From Herbaspirillum rhizosphaerae (GTDB taxonomy: Bacteria; Pseudomonadota; Gammaproteobacteria; Burkholderiales; Burkholderiaceae_D): DNA of 64,000 bases. The stretch covers positions 62,001 through 126,000 of the forward strand of contig NZ_LFLU01000002.1 in NCBI RefSeq assembly GCF_001189965.1, read 5' to 3'. Below, one piece after another: positions 55,352-64,000 of the stretch. Numbering within the stretch: the stretch's first letter is position 1; every line of letters begins with the position of its first letter. The notes under the pieces are model-generated. The model ran no database searches. It saw only the letters and a program-made list of their open reading frames with translations, and was not told the origin of the DNA. The translations under genes were made by a program, and so were the position numbers.

Positions 55352-56017
55352 TTACAAATCAAACGGCGTCAGGACTTTGGACAGCCATTCCTGTTCCAGC
55401 TTGCCGTTGGCAATCTCCGCTTTGATTTTTTCTTCGTGCGCATGGGTCTTGCGCGCCGCTTCAATCAGCTTTTCCGTGTCTTGCAGCGGAAACGAAACGA
55501 TGCCGTCTTCGTCTCCCACGATGACGTCGCCCGGACTGATGACCTGGCCGCCGACAGAGACCGGCACATTGATCTGCCCCGGACCGTTCTTGTAGGGGCC
55601 GCGATGGCTGACCGCCCTGGCGTAGCACGGGAAATCGGCTTCGTAAAAGGCGTTCGTGTCGCGCACCGCTGCGTCGATCACAAAGCCTGCGCAGCCGCGC
55701 TGCTGCGCATACAGCATGATCAGTTCGCCGACCAGGGCGTTCGTCGGATGGCCGGCGCCGTCGACGACCAGTACATGGCCCGGTTTCAGCAGCGTCAGCG
55801 CCTTGTAGATGAGGAGATTGTCGCCGGGACGGACCTTTACCGTGAACGCGGTGCCCAGCAATTTCTTCGAGCGGTGGATGCGCTGCAGTCCGCATATGCC
55901 GGACATGCGCTGAAGGTTGTCGCTCAGGTGAGAAACGACGATATGTTCCAGATCGGTGAGTTGCGCCTTCGACGCCACCGGCGCCCAGGGATTGATAAAG
56001 AATGCGGAATTGTTCAT
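55352..56017 (-). CDS. RraA/HMG-aldolase family protein, paralogue 1
   Basis: A 221-residue protein of the RraA-like fold shared by the RNase E inhibitor RraA and by 4-hydroxy-4-methyl-2-oxoglutarate (HMG) aldolase. The aldolase Arg-Asp pair is present as Arg119-Asp120 in FVIDAAVRD. The classic loop GDVIVGDEDGIVSFP supplies acidic residues near the metal. VDGAGHPTNALVGELIMLYA is typical of the aldolase-like branch. The protein is the most divergent of the five in this cluster. It is the second gene of a minus-strand pair with paralogue 2, 70 bp apart. Confidence 0.9.
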   Translation of the reverse strand: MNNSAFFINPWAPVASKAQLTDLEHIVVSHLSDNLQRMSGICGLQRIHRSKKLLGTAFTVKVRPGDNLLIYKALTLLKPGHVLVVDGAGHPTNALVGELIMLYAQQRGCAGFVIDAAVRDTNAFYEADFPCYARAVSHRGPYKNGPGQINVPVSVGGQVISPGDVIVGDEDGIVSFPLQDTEKLIEAARKTHAHEEKIKAEIANGKLEQEWLSKVLTPFDL

Positions 56018-56087
56018 AGGTGTCGATAGAGTGAAAAAAAGATGTGTCAGAGGTGGCGTTTCCGGCGCGCCCGGGAGCGCAGATTTT

Positions 56088-56780
56088 TTAAATGCGAAAT
56101 TTTCCCCAGGTGTTTTTTATTGACGGTTTGCAGACGGCGTCCAGCTGCTGTTCCGGCATGAGCCTGAGCAATGGCTGGCCCGCTTGAAGCGCTGCGGCGA
56201 TGTCGGCCTTCTTGCGGAAGATGCGCTCGGCCGTTGCGACGACAGACTCGATCATGGCGACCGGAATGAACACCGTGCCGCAGCGATCGGCTATCACGTA
56301 GTCGCCCGGGTGCACCACCACGCCCGCGACAACCACCGGTATGCCGGAGGACACATGAGCGACTCTGCGTTCCCCGCTGATGGCGGTGAGGCCGGCGCCA
56401 AATACCGGATAAGCGTCCGCCGTGCCGTCGTCGACTTCGCGATACATCCCGTCGATCACCGAACCCAGGATGGCGCGCCTCGCCGCCAGCGCATTCAGGC
56501 TGCCGTCCCAGCAGGCGATGCCGTCGACGCCGCCGGCCACAACCAGGATCTGATCGCGCGCTTCGATGGCGTTGATCGCGGAGCTTAAAAAATGGCTTTG
56601 TCCCTTGCGCCTGGCGATCGCTTCAAGCTGCACCGTGCTGGCTTGTCCGACCATCTTCCTGCGATGGCCGAGCGGCAGCAAGCCGTTGGTCGCGCCGGTC
56701 AGTCCGTAGACGTCCAGGGCGTCGGAAACGGCGCCGGTGTTCAACCGCGCCAGGCGCGCCAGCAGAAGGTGGGACGGCAT
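56088..56780 (-). CDS. RraA/HMG-aldolase family protein, paralogue 2 (Arg-Glu variant)
   Basis: A 230-residue RraA-fold protein. The N-terminus LNTGAVSDALDVYGLTGATN and ILVVAGGVDGIACWDGSLNA match the cluster family. The catalytic-pair position reads Arg114-Glu115 (IDGMYREVDD) instead of Arg-Asp. The C-terminal loop reads YVIADRCGTVFIP, as in paralogues 3 and 5. AGGA lies 7 nt before the ATG at 56780. It is divergent from the ABC transporter operon, and a copy of the shared 17-bp motif lies upstream. Confidence 0.88.
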   Translation of the reverse strand: MPSHLLLARLARLNTGAVSDALDVYGLTGATNGLLPLGHRRKMVGQASTVQLEAIARRKGQSHFLSSAINAIEARDQILVVAGGVDGIACWDGSLNALAARRAILGSVIDGMYREVDDGTADAYPVFGAGLTAISGERRVAHVSSGIPVVVAGVVVHPGDYVIADRCGTVFIPVAMIESVVATAERIFRKKADIAAALQAGQPLLRLMPEQQLDAVCKPSIKNTWGKFRI

Positions 56781-56827
56781 AAGAATTCCTCCAATGACCT
56801 GGCAGCCACTTTGCACGCGTCGGCGCC

Positions 56828-56844
56828 ATACGTAAATTCTTATT
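56828..56844 (-). promoter_or_regulatory. Shared 17-bp motif, copy 1
   Basis: On the minus strand this reads AATAAGAATTTACGTAT, 48 bp upstream of the paralogue 2 start. It differs from copies 2 and 3 by one or two bases. Confidence 0.6.
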
Positions 56845-57058
56845 CGGCTAAGCCATTTATACGGAGAGCCTATGGATGTGCGCGACTGCGGGAGGCAAGC
56901 AAAAAGGGAGGCAGCAGAGAAGAGAGGCGGATCCCGCAGAAATCGTCGCGTGACGCAAAACAGATCGCCGGGCCAGGGCCATTCTGGTGCGGCGCACTAA
57001 AACAAGACGCCGGATGCACAAGGAGAGTGATAGGTTTTATGTATATAAAACATACCAA

Positions 57059-57075
57059 AATGAGAATTTACATAT
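57059..57075 (+). promoter_or_regulatory. Shared 17-bp motif, copy 2
   Basis: Reads AATGAGAATTTACATAT, 90 bp upstream of the binding-protein gene and just after a 18-bp palindrome. It is a candidate site for the LysR protein encoded at 61188-62111. Confidence 0.6.
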
Positions 57076-57164
57076 ACGTCGCGAACTTCGATATTGCACA
57101 TCTGGATCGTCTCCATGTGGAGAAGATCGATAACACGTCATCGCCATCTCACAAGGGGATTCAA

Positions 57165-58097
57165 ATGATTACCAAGTCTGCTTCATCACTGGCGCCGGTT
57201 CTTGCCACCTGTATTGCCGCCTGTATCGCAACCGCCACCCCGCTGCAAGTCAGCGCCGCGCAAAAAGGGACCCTGGACAAGATCGCGGCATCCAAGATCA
57301 TCACGCTGGGCGTGCGCGATTCCTCGCCGCCGTTTTCCTATCTGGACGACAAGCAGTCGTACATCGGCTACTCGATCGATCTGTGCATGAAGATCGTGAC
57401 GGCCGTTCAGAAGCAACTGGGTGCGAGCAGCCTGTCGGTGAAGATGCAACCGGTCACCTCATCGACGCGTATCCCCTTGCTGGCCAACGGCACCATCGAT
57501 CTTGAATGCGGCTCGACGACCAACAACGAAGAACGGCAAAAGCAGGTCTCCTTTGCGCCCACCACCTTCGTGACGTCCAACCGGCTGCTGGCGAAGAAGA
57601 GCGCCAACATCAAGACGCTGGCCGACCTGAAAGGCAAGACGCTGGTCGCCACCGCCGGCACCACCAACATCAAGCAGGTGACGCAGCTTAACGCCGACAA
57701 ATCGCTGGGAATCAACATCATCGCCTCCAAGGATATCGGCGAAGGCTTCCTGATGGTGGAGACCGGCCGCGCCGTCGCCTACTCGCTGGACGATGTCGTC
57801 CTCGCCGCCCTGGCGGCCAACTCCAAGTCGCCCGGCGATTACGGCATCAGCGCGGAAGCGATGTCTTTCGAGCCTTACGGCATCGTCTTGCGCAAGGATG
57901 ATCCTGAGTTCAAGAAAGCCGTCGACGCCGCCATCACCGCAGTCTTCCGTTCCGGTGAAATCAACCGTATCTACGCCAAGTGGTTCCAGGCTGCGATTCC
58001 GCCCAAGGGCATCAACATGAACTGGCCGATGACGCCTCAGCTGCAAAAGGCGATTGCCCATCCCACCGACTCGGCCGATCCCGAAGTCTACAAATAA
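57165..58097 (+). CDS. Polar amino acid ABC transporter, periplasmic binding protein
   Basis: A 310-residue exported binding protein of the glutamate/aspartate (GltI/AatJ) type. The signal peptide is followed by the mature start AAQKGTLDKIAASKIITLGV. Family landmarks are SPPFSYLDDKQSYIGYSIDL, LECGSTTNNEERQKQVSFAP, and a C-terminal SGEINRIYAKWFQAAIPPKG. It captures an amino acid, probably acidic, in the periplasm for the two permeases and the ATPase encoded downstream. GGGGAT precedes the ATG at 57165. Confidence 0.92.
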   Translation: MITKSASSLAPVLATCIAACIATATPLQVSAAQKGTLDKIAASKIITLGVRDSSPPFSYLDDKQSYIGYSIDLCMKIVTAVQKQLGASSLSVKMQPVTSSTRIPLLANGTIDLECGSTTNNEERQKQVSFAPTTFVTSNRLLAKKSANIKTLADLKGKTLVATAGTTNIKQVTQLNADKSLGINIIASKDIGEGFLMVETGRAVAYSLDDVVLAALAANSKSPGDYGISAEAMSFEPYGIVLRKDDPEFKKAVDAAITAVFRSGEINRIYAKWFQAAIPPKGINMNWPMTPQLQKAIAHPTDSADPEVYK

Positions 58098-58214
58098 AGC
58101 GCCTGCGATCTCTTCAGGTTCTTTGCAACGCGACGGCATGTCGCATGTGAAATACGAAAGGTGACCGGGATCCGCGTCAGCGCGCAGGCGATGGCGAGGA
58201 TGCCGGCATGAGCT

Positions 58215-58949
58215 ATGAACTACAACTGGAATTGGCGCATTCTCCTGGAGCAGGCCCCCGATGGAACGGGGTCTTATTTGCATAGCCTGTTCGTCGGTTT
58301 GTGGTGGACGTTGTCTATCGCATTACTGGCGTGGCTCATCGCACTGGTGCTGGGGACGTTTATCGGCGTGATCCGCACGCACCCCAGCAAGGCATTGATG
58401 GCCGCAGGCAACGCCTACGTGGAGCTGTTCCGCAATATCCCGCTGATCGTGCAGATGTTCCTGTGGTATTTCGTGGTGCCGGAATTCCTGCCTGCCGGAT
58501 TGGGCGACTGGATCAAGGCGCTGCCCAACAACGCGTTTTATACGGCCGTGATCTGCCTCGGATTTTTCACCTCGGCGCGCGTGGCTGTGCAACTGTCGGC
58601 GGGCATCAATACGCTCTCGCGCGGCCAGCGCATGGCCGGGCTGGCGTTGGGTATGACGCAAGGGCAGACCTATCGCTACGTGCTCCTGCCGATGGCGTTC
58701 CGCATCGTGGTCCCGCCGCTCACCAGCGAATTCCTCGGCGTTATCAAGAACAGCGCCGTGGCATTGACGATAGGCGTGATGGAACTGACCGCGCAGACCA
58801 GGTCCATGCAAGAGTTCACGTTCCAGGTGTTCGAGGCGTTCACCGTGGCGACGGTGTTGTACATCATCGTCAACGTGATCGTGGTGAACCTGATGCGCAA
58901 ACTGGAAAACCGGATCGCGGTGCCCGGCTACATCTCCAACGCAAAGTGA
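58215..58949 (+). CDS. Polar amino acid ABC transporter permease (GltJ type)
   Basis: A 244-residue inner-membrane permease with five or so helices. It has the HisMQ-like signature AYVELFRNIPLIVQMFLWYF and the EAA-type loop LSRGQRMAGLALGMTQGQTY. The long N-terminal stretch NYNWNWRILLEQAPDGTGSY is typical of GltJ. It pairs with the next permease to form the channel. It follows the binding-protein gene by 117 bp. Confidence 0.92.
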   Translation: MNYNWNWRILLEQAPDGTGSYLHSLFVGLWWTLSIALLAWLIALVLGTFIGVIRTHPSKALMAAGNAYVELFRNIPLIVQMFLWYFVVPEFLPAGLGDWIKALPNNAFYTAVICLGFFTSARVAVQLSAGINTLSRGQRMAGLALGMTQGQTYRYVLLPMAFRIVVPPLTSEFLGVIKNSAVALTIGVMELTAQTRSMQEFTFQVFEAFTVATVLYIIVNVIVVNLMRKLENRIAVPGYISNAK

Positions 58950-58956
58950 GCGGATC

Positions 58957-59643
58957 ATGAATTTCGATTTCGATGTCATACAGCGATCCTGGGTATACCT
59001 GTTTCAGGTCGGCATGGTGTTCACCCTCAAGCTCACCTTGCTGTCCCTGATCGGCGCGACGCTGCTCGGCACGCTGCTGGCGCTCATGAAGCTATCGGGC
59101 AATCGCATCGTCAGCAAAACGGCGACCGAATACGTGAACCTGGTGCGCTCGATTCCTCTGGTGCTGGTCATCTTCTGGTTCTACTTCCTGGTTCCCTACC
59201 TGGGCGCCTGGGTCATCGGTTCTTCCGAGCCGGTGCAGGTCGGCGCGTTCACCTCGTCGCTGGTGACCTTCGTGTTGTTCGAAGCGGCCTACTTCTGCGA
59301 AATCATTCGCGCCGGCATTCAGTCGATTCCGCGCGGCCAGGTCGGCGCGGCCTACGCGCTCGGGATGACTTACTGGCAATCGATGGGAAGCATCGTGCTG
59401 CCCCAGGCCTTCCGCATGATGATCCCGGTGTTGCTGACGCAAACCATCATCCTGTTCCAGGACGTATCCCTGGTCTACGTGCTGTCCATCACGGATTTCG
59501 TCGGCGCCGCATCCAAGGTGGCGCAACGGGACGGACGGCTGGTCGAAATGTATCTCTTCGTCGCCGTGGTCTATTTCATCATCAGCTTTTCCTTGTCTCT
59601 TCTGGTCAAGCGATTGAACCGGCGTCTGGCCTTTGTGCGCTGA
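58957..59643 (+). CDS. Polar amino acid ABC transporter permease (GltK type)
   Basis: A 228-residue permease with YVNLVRSIPLVLVIFWFYFL and the EAA loop IPRGQVGAAYALGMTYWQSM. It starts 8 nt after the GltJ-type gene, so the two are translated together. The gene downstream is not the expected ATPase but an RraA-type enzyme. Confidence 0.93.
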   Translation: MNFDFDVIQRSWVYLFQVGMVFTLKLTLLSLIGATLLGTLLALMKLSGNRIVSKTATEYVNLVRSIPLVLVIFWFYFLVPYLGAWVIGSSEPVQVGAFTSSLVTFVLFEAAYFCEIIRAGIQSIPRGQVGAAYALGMTYWQSMGSIVLPQAFRMMIPVLLTQTIILFQDVSLVYVLSITDFVGAASKVAQRDGRLVEMYLFVAVVYFIISFSLSLLVKRLNRRLAFVR

Positions 59644-59689
59644 AAAACCGGTCACCCCATTTTTATCAAATTCATCAAAAGGAAACAAA

Positions 59690-60349
59690 ATGAACGACGC
59701 AAAATTGCTCGAACGCCTCTCCGCCCTCGATTCCAACACCATCTCCGACGCGCTGGATTTCATGGGTCTGCCCGGCGCGACTTACGGCATCCGTCCGCTT
59801 TGGAATTGCCCGAAGATCGTCGGCAAGGCCAGCACTATCCAGGTCGCTCCCAAAGAGGGGAAGACGCCGACCGTGCACATGCTCACCCCGGTGATCGCCG
59901 AGATCGAGGCGGATGACCGCGTGCTGGTGATTGCCGGCGGGCTGGAAGGCATCTCGTGCTGGGGCGACATCGTCGCCAATGCGGCAAAAATGAAAAAAAT
60001 CCGCGGCACCGTGATTGACGGCATGAGCCGCGACATCGACGGCAGCGAGGCAATCGACTACCCGGTGTTCGGTCGCGGCGTGACCATGATCAGCGCGCGC
60101 AACCGTCTCATCCAGACCGGTTCGGGCGAAGCGATCACCTTTGCCGGCGTAGTGGTGAACCAGGACGACCTGGTCATTGCCGATCGTTGCGGCACGGTAT
60201 TCATTCCAGCCGCCAAGGCGGAAGACATCATCGAACTGGCGGAGAAGATCAATGCGCGCCAGGAAGCCATGGTCAAGGCGGTGCGCAATGGCCGCTCCGT
60301 TGCGGAAGTGATGCACGACAAAGAGTTCGACCAGATCTATAAAAAATAA
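59690..60349 (+). CDS. RraA/HMG-aldolase family protein, paralogue 3 (inside the ABC operon)
   Basis: A 219-residue RraA-fold protein, very similar throughout to paralogue 5. It has Arg114-Asp115 in IDGMSRDIDG, the loop LVIADRCGTVFIP and LVIAGGLEGISCWGDIVANA. AAAGGAAAC precedes the ATG. It sits between the permease and ATPase genes of the amino acid importer, which strongly suggests that it processes the imported compound. Pyruvate-aldolase activity fits the conserved residues but is unproven; an RNase E inhibitor role is unlikely in this setting. Confidence 0.9.
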   Translation: MNDAKLLERLSALDSNTISDALDFMGLPGATYGIRPLWNCPKIVGKASTIQVAPKEGKTPTVHMLTPVIAEIEADDRVLVIAGGLEGISCWGDIVANAAKMKKIRGTVIDGMSRDIDGSEAIDYPVFGRGVTMISARNRLIQTGSGEAITFAGVVVNQDDLVIADRCGTVFIPAAKAEDIIELAEKINARQEAMVKAVRNGRSVAEVMHDKEFDQIYKK

Positions 60350-60405
60350 ACGGGGGCGATGAAGGATATGTCAGAGGTGAACAAGGCAACGCAAAGGTGT
60401 ACCGC

Positions 60406-61131
60406 ATGATTGACATCGTCAACGTCAGCAAATGGTACGGCGATTTCCGGGTCCTGAACTCGTGCACGACGCATGCCAAGAAAGGCGATGTCGTCGTCGT
60501 GTGCGGTCCGTCAGGATCGGGGAAGTCGACCTTGATCAAGACCATCAACGGTCTGGAATCGTTCCAGCAGGGAGAGATCCGTGTCGACGGCATGTTGCTG
60601 CATCGCCGTCATACCAGCCTGGAGAAAATTCGCGCCCGCATCGGCATGGTGTTCCAGAACTTCGAGCTGTTTCCGCACCTGACGGTCTTCGAGAACATCC
60701 TGTTGGGCCAGGTCAAGGTCCTGGGGCGCAGCAGGGAGGAAGCGGGCGACAAGGCCGCGACCTACCTGGCGCGGGTTGGCATGGCCGCGCACAGGGATAA
60801 ATTTCCGGGGCAGCTTTCCGGCGGGCAGCAACAGCGCATCGCCATCGCGCGTGCGCTGTCCATGGATCCGATCACCATGCTGTTCGACGAACCGACATCC
60901 GCGCTCGATCCGGAAATGGTCAACGAAGTGCTTGAAGTGATGATCTCGCTGGCGCAGGAGGGCATGACCATGATGGTCGTCACGCACGAGATGGGGTTTG
61001 CAAAACGCGTCGCCAGCCGGGTGATTTTCATGGATGAGGGCGCAATCATCGACGATTGCACCAAGGATGAATTCTTCGGCAGCAAGCGTTCAAGCCGGTC
61101 CCAGGATTTCCTCGCCAAGATCATTCATTAG
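60406..61131 (+). CDS. Polar amino acid ABC transporter ATP-binding protein (GltL type)
   Basis: A 241-residue ATPase with Walker A GPSGSGKST, signature LSGGQQQR, Walker B MLFDEPTSALDPE and switch His in VVTHEMGFAKRVA. FQNFELFPHLTVFENILLG is typical of the GlnQ/GltL group. It energises the two permeases encoded upstream. The ATG at 60406 follows AAAGGTG; a GTG at 60397 is an alternative start. A terminator follows at 61166. Confidence 0.95.
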   Translation: MIDIVNVSKWYGDFRVLNSCTTHAKKGDVVVVCGPSGSGKSTLIKTINGLESFQQGEIRVDGMLLHRRHTSLEKIRARIGMVFQNFELFPHLTVFENILLGQVKVLGRSREEAGDKAATYLARVGMAAHRDKFPGQLSGGQQQRIAIARALSMDPITMLFDEPTSALDPEMVNEVLEVMISLAQEGMTMMVVTHEMGFAKRVASRVIFMDEGAIIDDCTKDEFFGSKRSSRSQDFLAKIIH

Positions 61132-61165
61132 GAAGATATTTCCACGCCACAGCGACGAAGAAAGA

Positions 61166-61211
61166 CTGCGGAACCTTTAGCTGTTTGTCAGGCTGGTTCC
61201 GCAGCATTTTT
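61166..61211. terminator. Terminator between convergent ATPase and LysR genes
   Basis: CTGCGGAACC (61166-61175) and GGTTCCGCAG (61195-61204) form a perfect 10-bp stem followed by CATTTTT on the plus strand. The minus-strand side is TCTTTCTTC. The loop covers the LysR stop codon. Confidence 0.8.
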
Positions 61212-62111
61212 CCTGGTCGGTTTCATGGCCGTGAGTACTGCAATGAATTGCTCAATGAAAGGATTGTTGCGCGAGGTATCCCACGCCATCGCCGTCGTCA
61301 CCACATTCACGACTTCCTTCAGCGGACGCACGACGACGTTTTCGGGCGCCAGCTTTTTCATTGAGGCAGGCACCAGCGCAATGCCCTGACCGCAACCCAC
61401 GAAGGCGATCTGGGACGACACCGTGCGCACTTCGTGCAGCACCCGCGGAGAAAATCCGCTCGCCCGGCAGGCGCTGATCAGGCAGTCGAAATACACCGGG
61501 CTGAGTTCGCGTGCAAACATCACGAAATCCTCCGCGGCCAGCGACGGCAATCGAATTCTGGTCGCGGAAGCAAGCGCATGGGTTCGCGGGATGGCGACCG
61601 CCAGCCGGTCTTCGGCCAGCGGAACCGATTTGATGGTCGGTCCCAGGTCGCCTTCCAGACGCGCGAAAGCAATGTCGATGTCCCCCGACAACAGCATGGG
61701 GACGGCGCTCACGCTGTCAATTTCCTTTACCGCGATGGTCATGTCCGGACGGTCCACGCGGAACTTGTCGAGCACCGGCGGAAGATTGTTCAGCAAGGCG
61801 AGACCGATCGCGCCGATCGTGAGCGTGCCGGTTTGCCCTGCTGCCGCTTCAGCGACGGCGAACTCCAGGCTCTTCATCTGCTCGACAAATTTTTTCACGG
61901 AAGGAAAAATCGCCGCCCCGGCTGGGGTGAGTTGCGCGCCCCTGCGCGAGCGGTCGAAGAGCTTGATCTTGAGCGCCTGTTCCAATACCTGGATGTTCTC
62001 GGTCAGCGGCGGCTGCGACATGCCGAGCCGGCGTGCGGCGCGGCTGAAACTTTGTTCTTCAGCGACCGCGAGGAACATCCACAGATGCCGGAGGAGTCGG
62101 AAATTGATCAT
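61188..62111 (-). CDS. LysR family transcriptional regulator of the RraA/ABC cluster
   Basis: A 307-residue regulator with the winged helix MFLAVAEEQSFSRAARRLGM, SQPPLTENIQVLEQALKIKL and LFDRSRRGAQLTPAG, and a substrate-binding domain (TLTIGAIGLALLNNLPPVLD and FVGCGQGIALVPASMKKLAP). It is divergent from paralogue 4. A 17-bp motif lies in the spacer, and a degenerate inverted relative of it overlaps the region just upstream of the LysR start. It is the natural candidate regulator of the whole cluster. Confidence 0.92.
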   Translation of the reverse strand: MINFRLLRHLWMFLAVAEEQSFSRAARRLGMSQPPLTENIQVLEQALKIKLFDRSRRGAQLTPAGAAIFPSVKKFVEQMKSLEFAVAEAAAGQTGTLTIGAIGLALLNNLPPVLDKFRVDRPDMTIAVKEIDSVSAVPMLLSGDIDIAFARLEGDLGPTIKSVPLAEDRLAVAIPRTHALASATRIRLPSLAAEDFVMFARELSPVYFDCLISACRASGFSPRVLHEVRTVSSQIAFVGCGQGIALVPASMKKLAPENVVVRPLKEVVNVVTTAMAWDTSRNNPFIEQFIAVLTAMKPTRKNAAEPA

Positions 62112-62148
62112 GATTTTCTATAGGAATTTCTTAATGAAGCGTTAAAAG

Positions 62149-62165
62149 AATAAGAATTTACATAT
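62149..62165 (+). promoter_or_regulatory. Shared 17-bp motif, copy 3
   Basis: Reads AATAAGAATTTACATAT in the spacer between the LysR gene and paralogue 4, 78 bp before the paralogue 4 start. The distance to the start is close to that of copy 2. Confidence 0.6.
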
Positions 62166-62242
62166 AGCTGCTTAGCTCCGATAGTAACCACATTGCGCTG
62201 ATTTAGCGAGGCGCCGGTTCAAGTTTTTTAATGGAGATAAAC

Positions 62243-62905
62243 ATGAAGCAAGAGGACAAGGAACTCGTCGCATTATTCGCAGGCCTGGATACGCCCGGCG
62301 TGTCGGATGCGATGGACAAACTGGGATTGCCGGGCCAGTGCCTCGGCATCATGCCGCTGGATAATTACGTAGCGCCTGTCGTCGGTCCGGCCTTTACCGT
62401 GCGCTATGTGTCGGCCAGCGTGCCGCCCGGCAGCGTGGGCGATTTCATCGACGATGTGGCGCAAGGCGACATCATCGTCATCGACAACGACGGCCGTACC
62501 GACTGCACCGTGTGGGGCGACATCATGTCCCAGTACGCATCGATCCGGAACATCGCCGGCACCGTGATCGACGGCGTATGCCGTGACGTGAATCGCGCCT
62601 TGTCGGACCAGTATCCGATGTTTACGCGCGGCCGTTTCATGCGCACCGGCAAAGACCGTGTCCAGGTCGATAGCGTCAATACGCCGGTCTCCATCGGCAC
62701 GGCGCGCGTCGTGGCGCGCGACATTATCGTCGCAGATGCGAACGGCGTGGTGGTGGTGCCGCGCGCACGCGCACAAGAAGTGGCCGAACTGGCGCACAAG
62801 ATCGAGACAAGCGAATCGGCGATCCGCAAGCATATTGCGGAAGGCAAGACTCTGGGCGAGGCGCGCGCTCTTCTCGGGTATCACACCTTGCAGCGCAAGG
62901 CGTAA
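62243..62905 (+). CDS. RraA/HMG-aldolase family protein, paralogue 4
   Basis: A 220-residue RraA-fold protein with Arg114-Asp115 in IDGVCRDVNR and the canonical aldolase-like loop DIIVADANGVVVVPRARAQE. GDIIVIDNDGRTDCTVWGDI is typical of HMG-aldolase-like proteins. GGAG lies about 7 nt before the ATG at 62243, which is therefore preferred over the ATG at 62231. It starts a transcription unit with paralogue 5 and an aminotransferase, divergent from the LysR gene. Confidence 0.9.
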   Translation: MKQEDKELVALFAGLDTPGVSDAMDKLGLPGQCLGIMPLDNYVAPVVGPAFTVRYVSASVPPGSVGDFIDDVAQGDIIVIDNDGRTDCTVWGDIMSQYASIRNIAGTVIDGVCRDVNRALSDQYPMFTRGRFMRTGKDRVQVDSVNTPVSIGTARVVARDIIVADANGVVVVPRARAQEVAELAHKIETSESAIRKHIAEGKTLGEARALLGYHTLQRKA

Positions 62906-62920
62906 TCCGTATTGAATTCC

Positions 62921-63580
62921 ATGTCCAAATCTATCCTGGACCGGCTGGCCTCGGTCGATACCAACTCGGTTTCCGATGCACTGGACATCCTCGGTCTGGC
63001 GGGCGCCACATACGGTCTCTGGCCGCTATGGGGTTGCGGAAAAATCGTCGGCCGGGCAAGCACCATCCAGCTTGCCGCAAAGACGGCCGCGAAGCAGACG
63101 GCGCATGTGATCTCCCCCGTTATCGAAACGATCGTCACGGAGGATCGCGTGCTGGTCATCGCCGGCGGTCTTCACGGCGTCTCGTCGTGGGGCGACATCC
63201 TGGCAAACGCGGCGGAGTTCAGGCAGGTGCGCGCTTCCGTCATTGACGGGATGTGCCGCGACATCGACGGCAGCGAGCAGATCGCCTATCCGGTCTTCGG
63301 GCGCGGCGTGACCATGATCAGCGGGCGCAACCGGGCCATGCAAATCAGCGCCGGTGCGCCCGTCATGATGGCCGGCGTAGAAGTCAGCGAGGATGACTAC
63401 GTGATTGCCGACCGGTGCGGAACGGCATTCATCGCCGCAGAGCGGGTGACCGAGGTTGTCGCTCTCGCTGAAACGATCCTGGCGGAACAGGACAAGATCA
63501 TCCAGGCCATAGGCGACGGGGTCCCGTTGTCGCAACTGATGAAAACCGGGGAATTCAAGAAAGTCGCCGCTTACCCTTGA
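62921..63580 (+). CDS. RraA/HMG-aldolase family protein, paralogue 5
   Basis: A 219-residue RraA-fold protein very similar to paralogue 3, with Arg113-Asp114 in IDGMCRDIDG and the loop YVIADRCGTAFIA. It begins 15 nt after paralogue 4 and was probably formed by duplication from the same ancestor as paralogue 3. A TTG at 62912 is a less likely start. It is followed by an aminotransferase gene after 56 bp. Confidence 0.9.
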   Translation: MSKSILDRLASVDTNSVSDALDILGLAGATYGLWPLWGCGKIVGRASTIQLAAKTAAKQTAHVISPVIETIVTEDRVLVIAGGLHGVSSWGDILANAAEFRQVRASVIDGMCRDIDGSEQIAYPVFGRGVTMISGRNRAMQISAGAPVMMAGVEVSEDDYVIADRCGTAFIAAERVTEVVALAETILAEQDKIIQAIGDGVPLSQLMKTGEFKKVAAYP

Positions 63581-63636
63581 GGCTCGCATCGCCGCCGGAT
63601 GCAGCCCAACACCTATCCTTAGAGAGAAGCATCACC

Positions 63637-64000
63637 ATGTCAGACGTCAAGCCTGCAATCGAACGGCTCAACAAAAACCTTGCCGCCGCCAAGCCGTCGG
63701 CGACCTACAAGATGATGGACAGGGTGGCGGCGCGCCGGGCTGCCGGCGCCGCCATCATTTCGCTGAACGCCGGCGAGCCGGACTTCGCGACTCCCCAGCA
63801 TATCTGCGAAGCCGCGATCATGGGGATCCGCACCGGACATACCCGCTACACGCAAGTGGCCGGCACGCGCGAGCTGCGCGAAGCCGTCGCCGAAAAATTC
63901 CGCAGCGAGAACGGACTGAACGTCACCTGGCAAGACACCATCGTCGGCACTGGGGGCAAGCAAGTGCTGTTCAATGCGCTGGCGGCGACCCTGAACGAAG
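63637..64000 (+). CDS. Class I aminotransferase (AspC/AatA-like), 5' part; runs off the window
   Basis: The first 121 residues of a PLP-dependent aminotransferase, open at the window edge. IISLNAGEPDFATPQHICEA, the segment from HTRYTQVAGTRELREAVAEK, and VGTGGKQVLFNALAATL are the N-terminal landmarks of the aspartate/prephenate-type family. The PLP lysine lies beyond the window. As the third gene after two RraA paralogues, it could convert the imported amino acid to the 2-oxo acid that the aldolase-like enzymes cleave. Confidence 0.9.
   Translation, partial: MSDVKPAIERLNKNLAAAKPSATYKMMDRVAARRAAGAAIISLNAGEPDFATPQHICEAAIMGIRTGHTRYTQVAGTRELREAVAEKFRSENGLNVTWQDTIVGTGGKQVLFNALAATLNE

Follow-up and report, generated by a model that had tools for sequence, protein, structure and literature searches.

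A candidate LysR-controlled regulon of RraA-fold proteins, an aminotransferase and an amino acid importer in Herbaspirillum rhizosphaerae, possibly for C4-branched glutamate analogues

We analyzed a stretch of 64,000 nucleotides of the Herbaspirillum rhizosphaerae genome (RefSeq assembly GCF_001189965.1, contig NZ_LFLU01000002.1, positions 62,001 to 126,000), hereafter called the window, whose end carries a cluster of genes encoding RraA-fold proteins, an ATP-binding cassette (ABC) importer, a LysR-type regulator and a class I aminotransferase (AT). The genes are arranged in three transcription units (RB-RA, the importer unit that also contains RC, and RD-RE-AT), with the five RraA-fold genes RA to RE spread over 8.3 kb (Table 1). 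The gene content given in the original prediction was confirmed: all five RraA-fold genes are open reading frames in the places proposed for them and exceed the cut-off of the Pfam family PF03737 (RraA-like; 155.7, 86.2, 105.5, 119.5 and 91.6 bits, cut-off 24.5), and the importer, the LysR-type gene and the AT gene are all present, the latter extending past the window. RB may start at the ATG at 56780 or at a GTG located upstream at 56816. On the opposite strand, 3' of AT, lies a gene for an MFS carrier (best model PRK10406, 420.7 bits, cut-off 550).

Table 1. Genes and candidate regulatory elements of the cluster. Positions are those of the window; residue numbering follows 3NOJ.
Feature	Position	Strand	Evidence
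RA, RraA/HMG-aldolase fold, third-slot lineage	55352..56017	-	E102 R123 D124 E199; PRK06201.1 279.4 bits, cut-off 231
RB, divergent RC-lineage RraA protein, probably no ordinary aldolase	56088..56780	-	G102, R123, E124, K199
Conserved element GAATTTACGTAT, likely operator, before RB-RA	56828..56839	-	
Conserved element GAATTTACATAT, likely operator, before the importer/RC unit	57064..57075	+	
Substrate-binding protein of Glu/Asp-type ABC importer, GltI/DEBP-like	57165..58097	+	302.9 bits, model cut-off 375
ABC importer permease	58215..58949	+	model matches
ABC importer permease, GltK-like	58957..59643	+	246 bits, cut-off 318
RC, RraA-fold core paralogue	59690..60349	+	D102 R123 D124, Gln199; predicted fold matches 3k4i, 3noj
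ABC importer ATPase	60397..61131	+	model matches
LysR-type regulator	61188..62111	-	relatives adjoin core genes in 61/72 loci
Conserved element GAATTTACATAT, likely operator, between LysR and RD	62154..62165	+	
RD, RraA-fold core paralogue	62243..62905	+	D102 R123 D124 E199
RE, additional RC-lineage copy, diverged	62921..63580	+	54% to RC; Gln199 as in RC
Class I aminotransferase (AT), 407 aa	63637..64000 in the window; ends at 64860 beyond it	+	translation

Across the whole 5.27-Mb genome there are three copies of the element GAATTTACRTAT, and each of the three transcription units is preceded by one of them: the copies lie upstream of RB-RA, upstream of the unit with the importer genes and RC, and, for RD-RE-AT, in the gap that separates it from LysR. 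These are the three copies in the window, and none was seen in 100 shuffles. The same three copies are present in Herbaspirillum sp. CF444, the closest relative among the matches listed (RC 96% identical). Since the element precedes all three units and is found nowhere else in the genome, the importer, the RraA genes and AT look like a single regulon. The shared motif is the strongest evidence for their presumed single function, and we infer that the LysR-type regulator is the protein that binds it.

An RC alignment was used to scan 84,980 species, each represented by one genome, and the best 80 of the resulting 181 coding stretches were kept. These 80 loci belong mainly to Burkholderiales and Pseudomonas (11 are titled Pseudomonas), with a few from Alphaproteobacteria; they include close relatives, and the counts are of loci rather than of independent events. 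Neighboring genes were counted by tblastn in fetched stretches of up to 10 kb on each side. For the core gene counts, loci had to extend 3 kb or more to either side of RC; 72 loci did so, and the 8 with less than 3 kb on one side were excluded. The core comprises LysR (61 loci), RD (62), a third RraA gene (50, of which 43 are of the RF lineage and 7 of the RA lineage) and AT (52), and a gene for an alpha/beta hydrolase is found in 42 loci. In the usual order, LysR on the minus strand is followed by RC-RD-RF(or RA)-AT with short gaps; RA without RF, as in the window, occurs in L043, L044, L063, L069 and CF444. The proposed co-occurrence of the aminotransferase with RraA genes therefore extends to many genera. 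Closer to home, RC at 69% identity or more was detected in 3 of the 294 genomes of the family, the window genome included, and the operon is thus uncommon there. CF444 has no extra RC-type copies, and carries instead a threo-3-hydroxyaspartate-ammonia-lyase-like gene (297.3 bits, cut-off 452) and a RidA-family gene; these two genes are also present in L101 and L061, where AT was not found. At eight further loci (L051, L052, L055, L056, L059, L073, L084 and L096) RC lies near a PcaD-like alpha/beta hydrolase gene, and RD, RF and AT were not found in the fetched stretches, some of which come from short contigs.

In the 1.5 Mb of these 80 loci the motif AATTTACRTAY has 32 copies, distributed over 29 loci. 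Each of the 32 copies is located no more than 400 bp from cluster genes and always outside these genes, and three Markov controls contained 0, 0 and 3 copies. In the gaps between LysR and RC it is located downstream of an inverted repeat, GTATC-N5-GATAC, which is present in 17 of 62 gaps, the top repeats of 20 shuffles having reached 4. Because the motif was picked out by eye in these gaps, finding it again in them is to some extent circular, which does not apply to the copies before RB-RA and the importer unit or to the whole-genome count.

The RraA-fold genes of the cluster account for five of the seven RraA-family matches in the genome (55 contigs). Their pairwise identities of 20-54% are too low for recent tandem duplicates. 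A tree of 58 rows places RC, RD, RF and RA in separate supported groups, with RE and RB inside the RC group, each on its own longer branch. Taken together with the core gene order, this placement describes the window as a core of RC, RD and RA plus two extra RC-type copies. The original prediction started from five paralogues, a number that is not general: the conserved core consists of three lineages. Three of the four catalytic positions are altered in RB, and RC and RE lack the metal-binding Glu. That different paralogues act on different stereoisomers, as the original prediction suggested, is speculative.

Could these proteins instead regulate ribonuclease E or belong to an aromatic pathway, their position near an importer being incidental? 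The fold is common to E. coli RraA and to the aldolase of 4-hydroxy-4-methyl-2-oxoglutarate (HMG) and 4-carboxy-4-hydroxy-2-oxoadipate (CHA). All five paralogues, however, fall below the cut-offs of the E. coli-type RraA model (PRK09372, best score at most 85.7 of 136 bits) and of the LigK and PRK09262 models (best RA, with 145.7 bits against 179 and 139.2 bits against 304.5), and the common motif ties the RraA genes to the importer and AT. A separate RraA gene on contig C45 matches 3NOJ at nine of nine compared letters, adjoins a 4-oxalomesaconate tautomerase gene (540.6 bits, cut-off 440) and is likely the aromatic-pathway aldolase of this genome. Aromatic degradation was rejected for the window cluster on the presence of the aromatic-type aldolase elsewhere, RNase E regulation is not supported by the model scores, and we consider this explanation highly improbable. 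Three consecutive RraA genes (RC-like, ~34%; RD-like, ~52%; C45-like, ~43%) were also observed at L031 (4554-11682) and L032 (8074-10326), in L031 near genes for a class III extradiol dioxygenase-like protein and a putative Rieske-type oxygenase (weak model matches); this looks like the same RraA trio in an apparent aromatic pathway. Another RraA gene of the genome, on contig C55 (L009, 5186-11506; 71% identical to RA), is accompanied by genes for an aminotransferase, a binding protein (best model lysine/arginine/ornithine family, 145.8 of 256.35 bits), two permeases, an ATPase and a LysR-type protein; the motif was not found in this set.

Catalytic letters were compared at nine positions of 3NOJ, the roles of which are taken from passages of PMC5065237. 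The Arg-Asp pair expected by the original prediction (Arg123, Asp124) is present in RA, RC, RD and RE and is replaced by Arg-Glu in RB, which keeps R123 alone of the four catalytic positions (G102, E124, K199). The metal-binding Glu199 is found in RA and RD, being Gln in RC and RE and Lys in RB. These letters are conserved within lineages: D102, R123, D124 and Gln199 in 80 of 80 RC relatives; D102, D124 and E199 in 64 and R123 in 63 of the 65 RD relatives with at least 60% identity; and E102, R123 and D124 in 44 and E199 in 43 of the 45 RF relatives at the same threshold, with the five RA relatives showing letters like those of RF. At positions 71, 127, 145, 147 and 195, in the phosphate/active-site region, RC, RD, RE and RB are unlike 3NOJ; therefore, substrate or kinetics may well differ from those of 3NOJ. 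The predicted fold of RC (mean predicted local distance difference test score 90.4) matches the structures 3k4i (E 2e-18) and 3noj (E 1.8e-13).

Gln199 in all RC relatives suggests either mixed oligomers or altered chemistry. Glu199 of HMG/CHA aldolase is, we assume, contributed by the adjacent subunit, in which case RC could be completed by RD or by RF/RA within a mixed oligomer. Alternatively, the RraA proteins might carry out another enolate-type step (hydration, tautomerization or decarboxylation) in a linear pathway leading to methylsuccinate or itaconate, as might be read from the invariant Gln of RC and the Glu at position 102 of RF and RA, from the L109 operon described below, which continues directly into decarboxylase and CoA genes, and from nine relatives that pair RC and RD with AcnX, where AT was not found. 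It is at odds with the near-invariant Arg123-Asp124 pair of the RC, RD and RF relatives and with RD, which retains all four metal/catalytic positions, and on balance we hold such a step to be unlikely.

The 57165 binding protein keeps all eight letters that we take to line the acidic-ligand pocket of DEBP (R24, S72, R75, S90, T92, R97, T140 and D182), which fit an acidic amino acid ligand and so agree with the import ligand proposed earlier. At position 164 it has Ile where DEBP has His; this change was considered as a sign of a new ligand and dropped, since the position varies among relatives (in the alignment row C11b duplicates row C11a). The closest importer paralogue in the genome sits near a glutamate-dehydrogenase-like gene (499.7 bits, cut-off 750). 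Plain aspartate use, in which aspartate or glutamate would be imported, AT would form oxaloacetate and the RraA proteins would act as oxaloacetate decarboxylases, would suit the Glu/Asp-like importer, the similarity of AT to an aspartate transaminase model (PRK06107, 521.4 bits, below the cut-off of 617) and the oxaloacetate decarboxylase activity of the aldolase family mentioned in PMC5065237 excerpts. Yet AT, the binding protein and the GltK-like permease all score below the cut-offs of the ordinary Asp/Glu models, and the three conserved RraA lineages and the decarboxylase and methylsuccinate links would be left unexplained; we therefore rate plain aspartate use as rather improbable.

Genes for a two-subunit thiamine-dependent decarboxylase are present at 18 of the 80 related loci, versus ~0.2 expected by chance according to our estimate. 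Its best models are those of sulfopyruvate decarboxylase (104.9 of 147.95 and 135.3 of 221.5 bits, below the cut-offs), and it is single-copy in 15 of 16 positive genomes (19 searched). Genes for acyl-CoA dehydrogenase, CoA-transferase, hydratase and lyase occur in 10, 10, 8 and 5 of the 80 loci; such methylsuccinate/itaconate-CoA enzyme genes lie near the operon in Pseudomonas, Paraburkholderia, Burkholderia and Ralstonia, and according to passages of PMC12290011 they degrade itaconate and methylsuccinate. In the Pseudomonas locus L109 all of these functions form one run, RC-RD-RF-AT-DecA-DecB-acyl-CoA dehydrogenase-CoA-transferase-ETF-ETF-hydratase-lyase, which L072, L108 and L112 resemble. 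The L109 hydratase matches the solved itaconyl-CoA hydratase 8khg (5.4e-138), and the lyase matches the solved acyl-CoA lyases 8khl and 9nzb (1.6e-121 and 1.7e-121). Two RC loci whose flanks were extended, L039 (extended as L123, Paraburkholderia lacunae) and L081 (extended as L124, Ralstonia sp. A12), also have the CoA and decarboxylase genes side by side. Among 15 genomes with both genes, 10 of which were chosen because the decarboxylase is near RC, the distance between the decarboxylase and the CoA-transferase is at most 10 kb in 9 and at most 25 kb in 11; the two genes are 318 kb apart in one of the remaining genomes and on different contigs in three. The gamma-methyl or gamma-methylene glutamates suggested in the original prediction would fit these neighbors.

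L124/L081 can be described as a supercluster in which the RraA core is joined by a dicarboxylate-symporter-family gene, a class V aminotransferase/cysteine-desulfurase-like gene, the decarboxylase pair, and genes for an aldehyde dehydrogenase, CoA-transferase, hydratase and lyase.

The decarboxylase could alternatively receive its substrate from an unbranched gamma-hydroxy acidic amino acid (4-hydroxyglutamate, 4-carboxy-4-hydroxy-2-aminoadipate or a monatin-like compound), cleavage of which would yield pyruvate and a second 2-oxo acid for this enzyme; RraA-fold aldolases accept both HMG and CHA in a large active site, as parts of PMC5065237 state. A search for monatin literature found no paper. 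The methylsuccinate/itaconate-CoA enzymes encoded close to the operon, however, act on a C5 acid with a methyl branch or a methylene group, which makes an unbranched substrate doubtful.

Taken together, these data favor a LysR-controlled catabolic regulon for a C4-branched glutamate analogue, to which we assign a probability of about 0.5. This interpretation draws on gene content, conservation, the shared motif, the catalytic letters and the neighborhood, and the second RraA, aminotransferase and importer set on contig C55 speaks for it as well. 4-Methyl- and 4-hydroxy-4-methyl-2-oxoglutarate are named as natural products in passages of PMC11345546; both would be transamination products of C4-branched glutamates, and the uptake and breakdown of the latter is therefore the best reading.

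Several observations weigh against it. An exact copy of AATTTACRTAY was not found in 51 of the 80 loci, L109 among them, nor in the scanned decarboxylase/methylsuccinate loci L121, L123, L124 and L129, and GTATC-N5-GATAC is not present exactly in the LysR gap of the window. Of the nine 3NOJ letters, RD keeps four and RC three. The decarboxylase, CoA-transferase and lyase of L109 are below the cut-offs of their best models (for the lyase, 164.4 bits with the RipC model, cut-off 375). An importer set of the window type is seen at just 3 of 80 loci, and its link to the RraA genes and AT is supported, in this genome, by the likely operator motif common to all three units. Other carriers may replace it in relatives: near the core we found an AGCS amino acid carrier (4 of 80), an asparagine-permease-like protein (4 of 80), an MFS relative (9 of 80) and, in L124, the dicarboxylate-symporter-family gene. 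Nine of the 80 loci (L053, L058, L065, L068, L087, L088, L089, L098 and L110, with RC-RD(-RF)) have an AcnX-type dehydratase and none of them AT at the thresholds used; eight also have a Bug-type receptor, and the best model of the L098 AcnX-type protein is cis-3-hydroxy-L-proline dehydratase (311 bits of 700). The RraA trio can therefore serve more than one feeder route.

In five sampled family members whose decarboxylase comes without a listed RC match, it lies 549 kb from the CoA-transferase (one genome) or on another contig (four), and in CF444, which has the operon, a decarboxylase match was not found. The window genome carries the decarboxylase and methylsuccinate sets ~18 kb apart on contig C52; the motif is absent from these loci, and these genes are therefore not tied to the regulon in this genome. 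The decarboxylase also neighbors a sulfolactaldehyde-reductase-like gene (302.1 bits, cut-off 348), which may point to another role for it, and it was dropped as a regulon member on both counts. At L121 (8144-15561), this stretch of C52 contains the decarboxylase subunits, the sulfolactaldehyde-reductase-like gene and two aldehyde-dehydrogenase-like genes, and possibly serves sulfonate metabolism.

C4-branched glutamates are non-protein amino acids of plants. Candidate substrates of the regulon include 4-hydroxy-4-methyl-, 4-methyl- and 4-methyleneglutamate, and perhaps 3-hydroxy-4-methylglutamate. The branched glutamate would be taken up by the ABC importer and converted by AT to a 4-substituted 2-oxoglutarate; in relatives without AT, the threo-3-hydroxyaspartate-ammonia-lyase-like enzyme and the RidA-family protein could stand in. 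RD and RA, as class II aldolases, would cleave 4-hydroxy-4-methyl-2-oxoglutarate to two pyruvates, a reaction known for an RraA-fold aldolase according to PMC5065237 (in part), with RC and RE taking part in the aldolase step, perhaps merely as partners. The alpha/beta hydrolase could open lactones formed by 4-hydroxyglutamates. In relatives, a non-hydroxylated 2-oxo acid would pass through the thiamine decarboxylase, an aldehyde dehydrogenase and the methylsuccinate/itaconate-CoA enzymes to acetyl-CoA and pyruvate; decarboxylation and oxidation of 4-methyl-2-oxoglutarate, for instance, would give methylsuccinate. The substrate, each of these reactions and the mixed oligomers are predicted from sequence.

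It can tentatively be speculated that this is an undescribed pathway for C4-branched glutamates in which the three RraA lineages form one mixed aldolase, RC borrowing its Glu from RD or RF/RA, and which, through the decarboxylase of relatives, is a natural source of methylsuccinate. Neither a bacterial pathway for C4-branched glutamates nor a description of the RraA, AT and importer gene set appeared among the literature matches listed (titles and abstract openings). The cluster would offer a bacterial route for these amino acids, with a regulator, a clear motif and a candidate substrate class, and it contains three conserved paralogues of one enzyme fold that are kept adjacent and have differing active-site letters. 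A 2025 paper (PMC12290011) states that methylsuccinate had no known natural pathway before itaconate reduction was discovered; the cluster suggests where soil bacteria may get methylsuccinate, a point left open in its Discussion.

Three known systems invite comparison. With the HMG/CHA aldolase of Pseudomonas putida F1 (3NOJ), the cluster shares the PF03737 fold, Arg123-Asp124 in RA, RC, RD and RE, and D102 and E199 in RD; it differs in having several aminotransferase-linked lineages together instead of one enzyme, in Gln199 of RC and RE, Glu102 of RA and the three changed positions of RB, and in scoring below the LigK-type cut-offs throughout. The importer resembles GltIJKL, the best models being PRK10797 for the binding protein and GltK for the second permease, although both scores (302.9 of 375 bits for GltI and 246 of 318 for GltK) are under the cut-offs, the unit holds an RraA gene inside it, and its motif is common to the RraA and AT units. 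Like the itaconate/methylsuccinate cluster of Cupriavidus necator and Pseudomonas aeruginosa (PMC12290011), relatives have homologues of the CoA-transferase, acyl-CoA dehydrogenase, hydratase and lyase in the vicinity of the operon, which in the window genome are on a separate contig from the RraA cluster; unlike it, they combine these with RraA genes, an aminotransferase gene and a thiamine decarboxylase of two subunits, and neither RraA nor aminotransferase appears as a word in the text of that paper.

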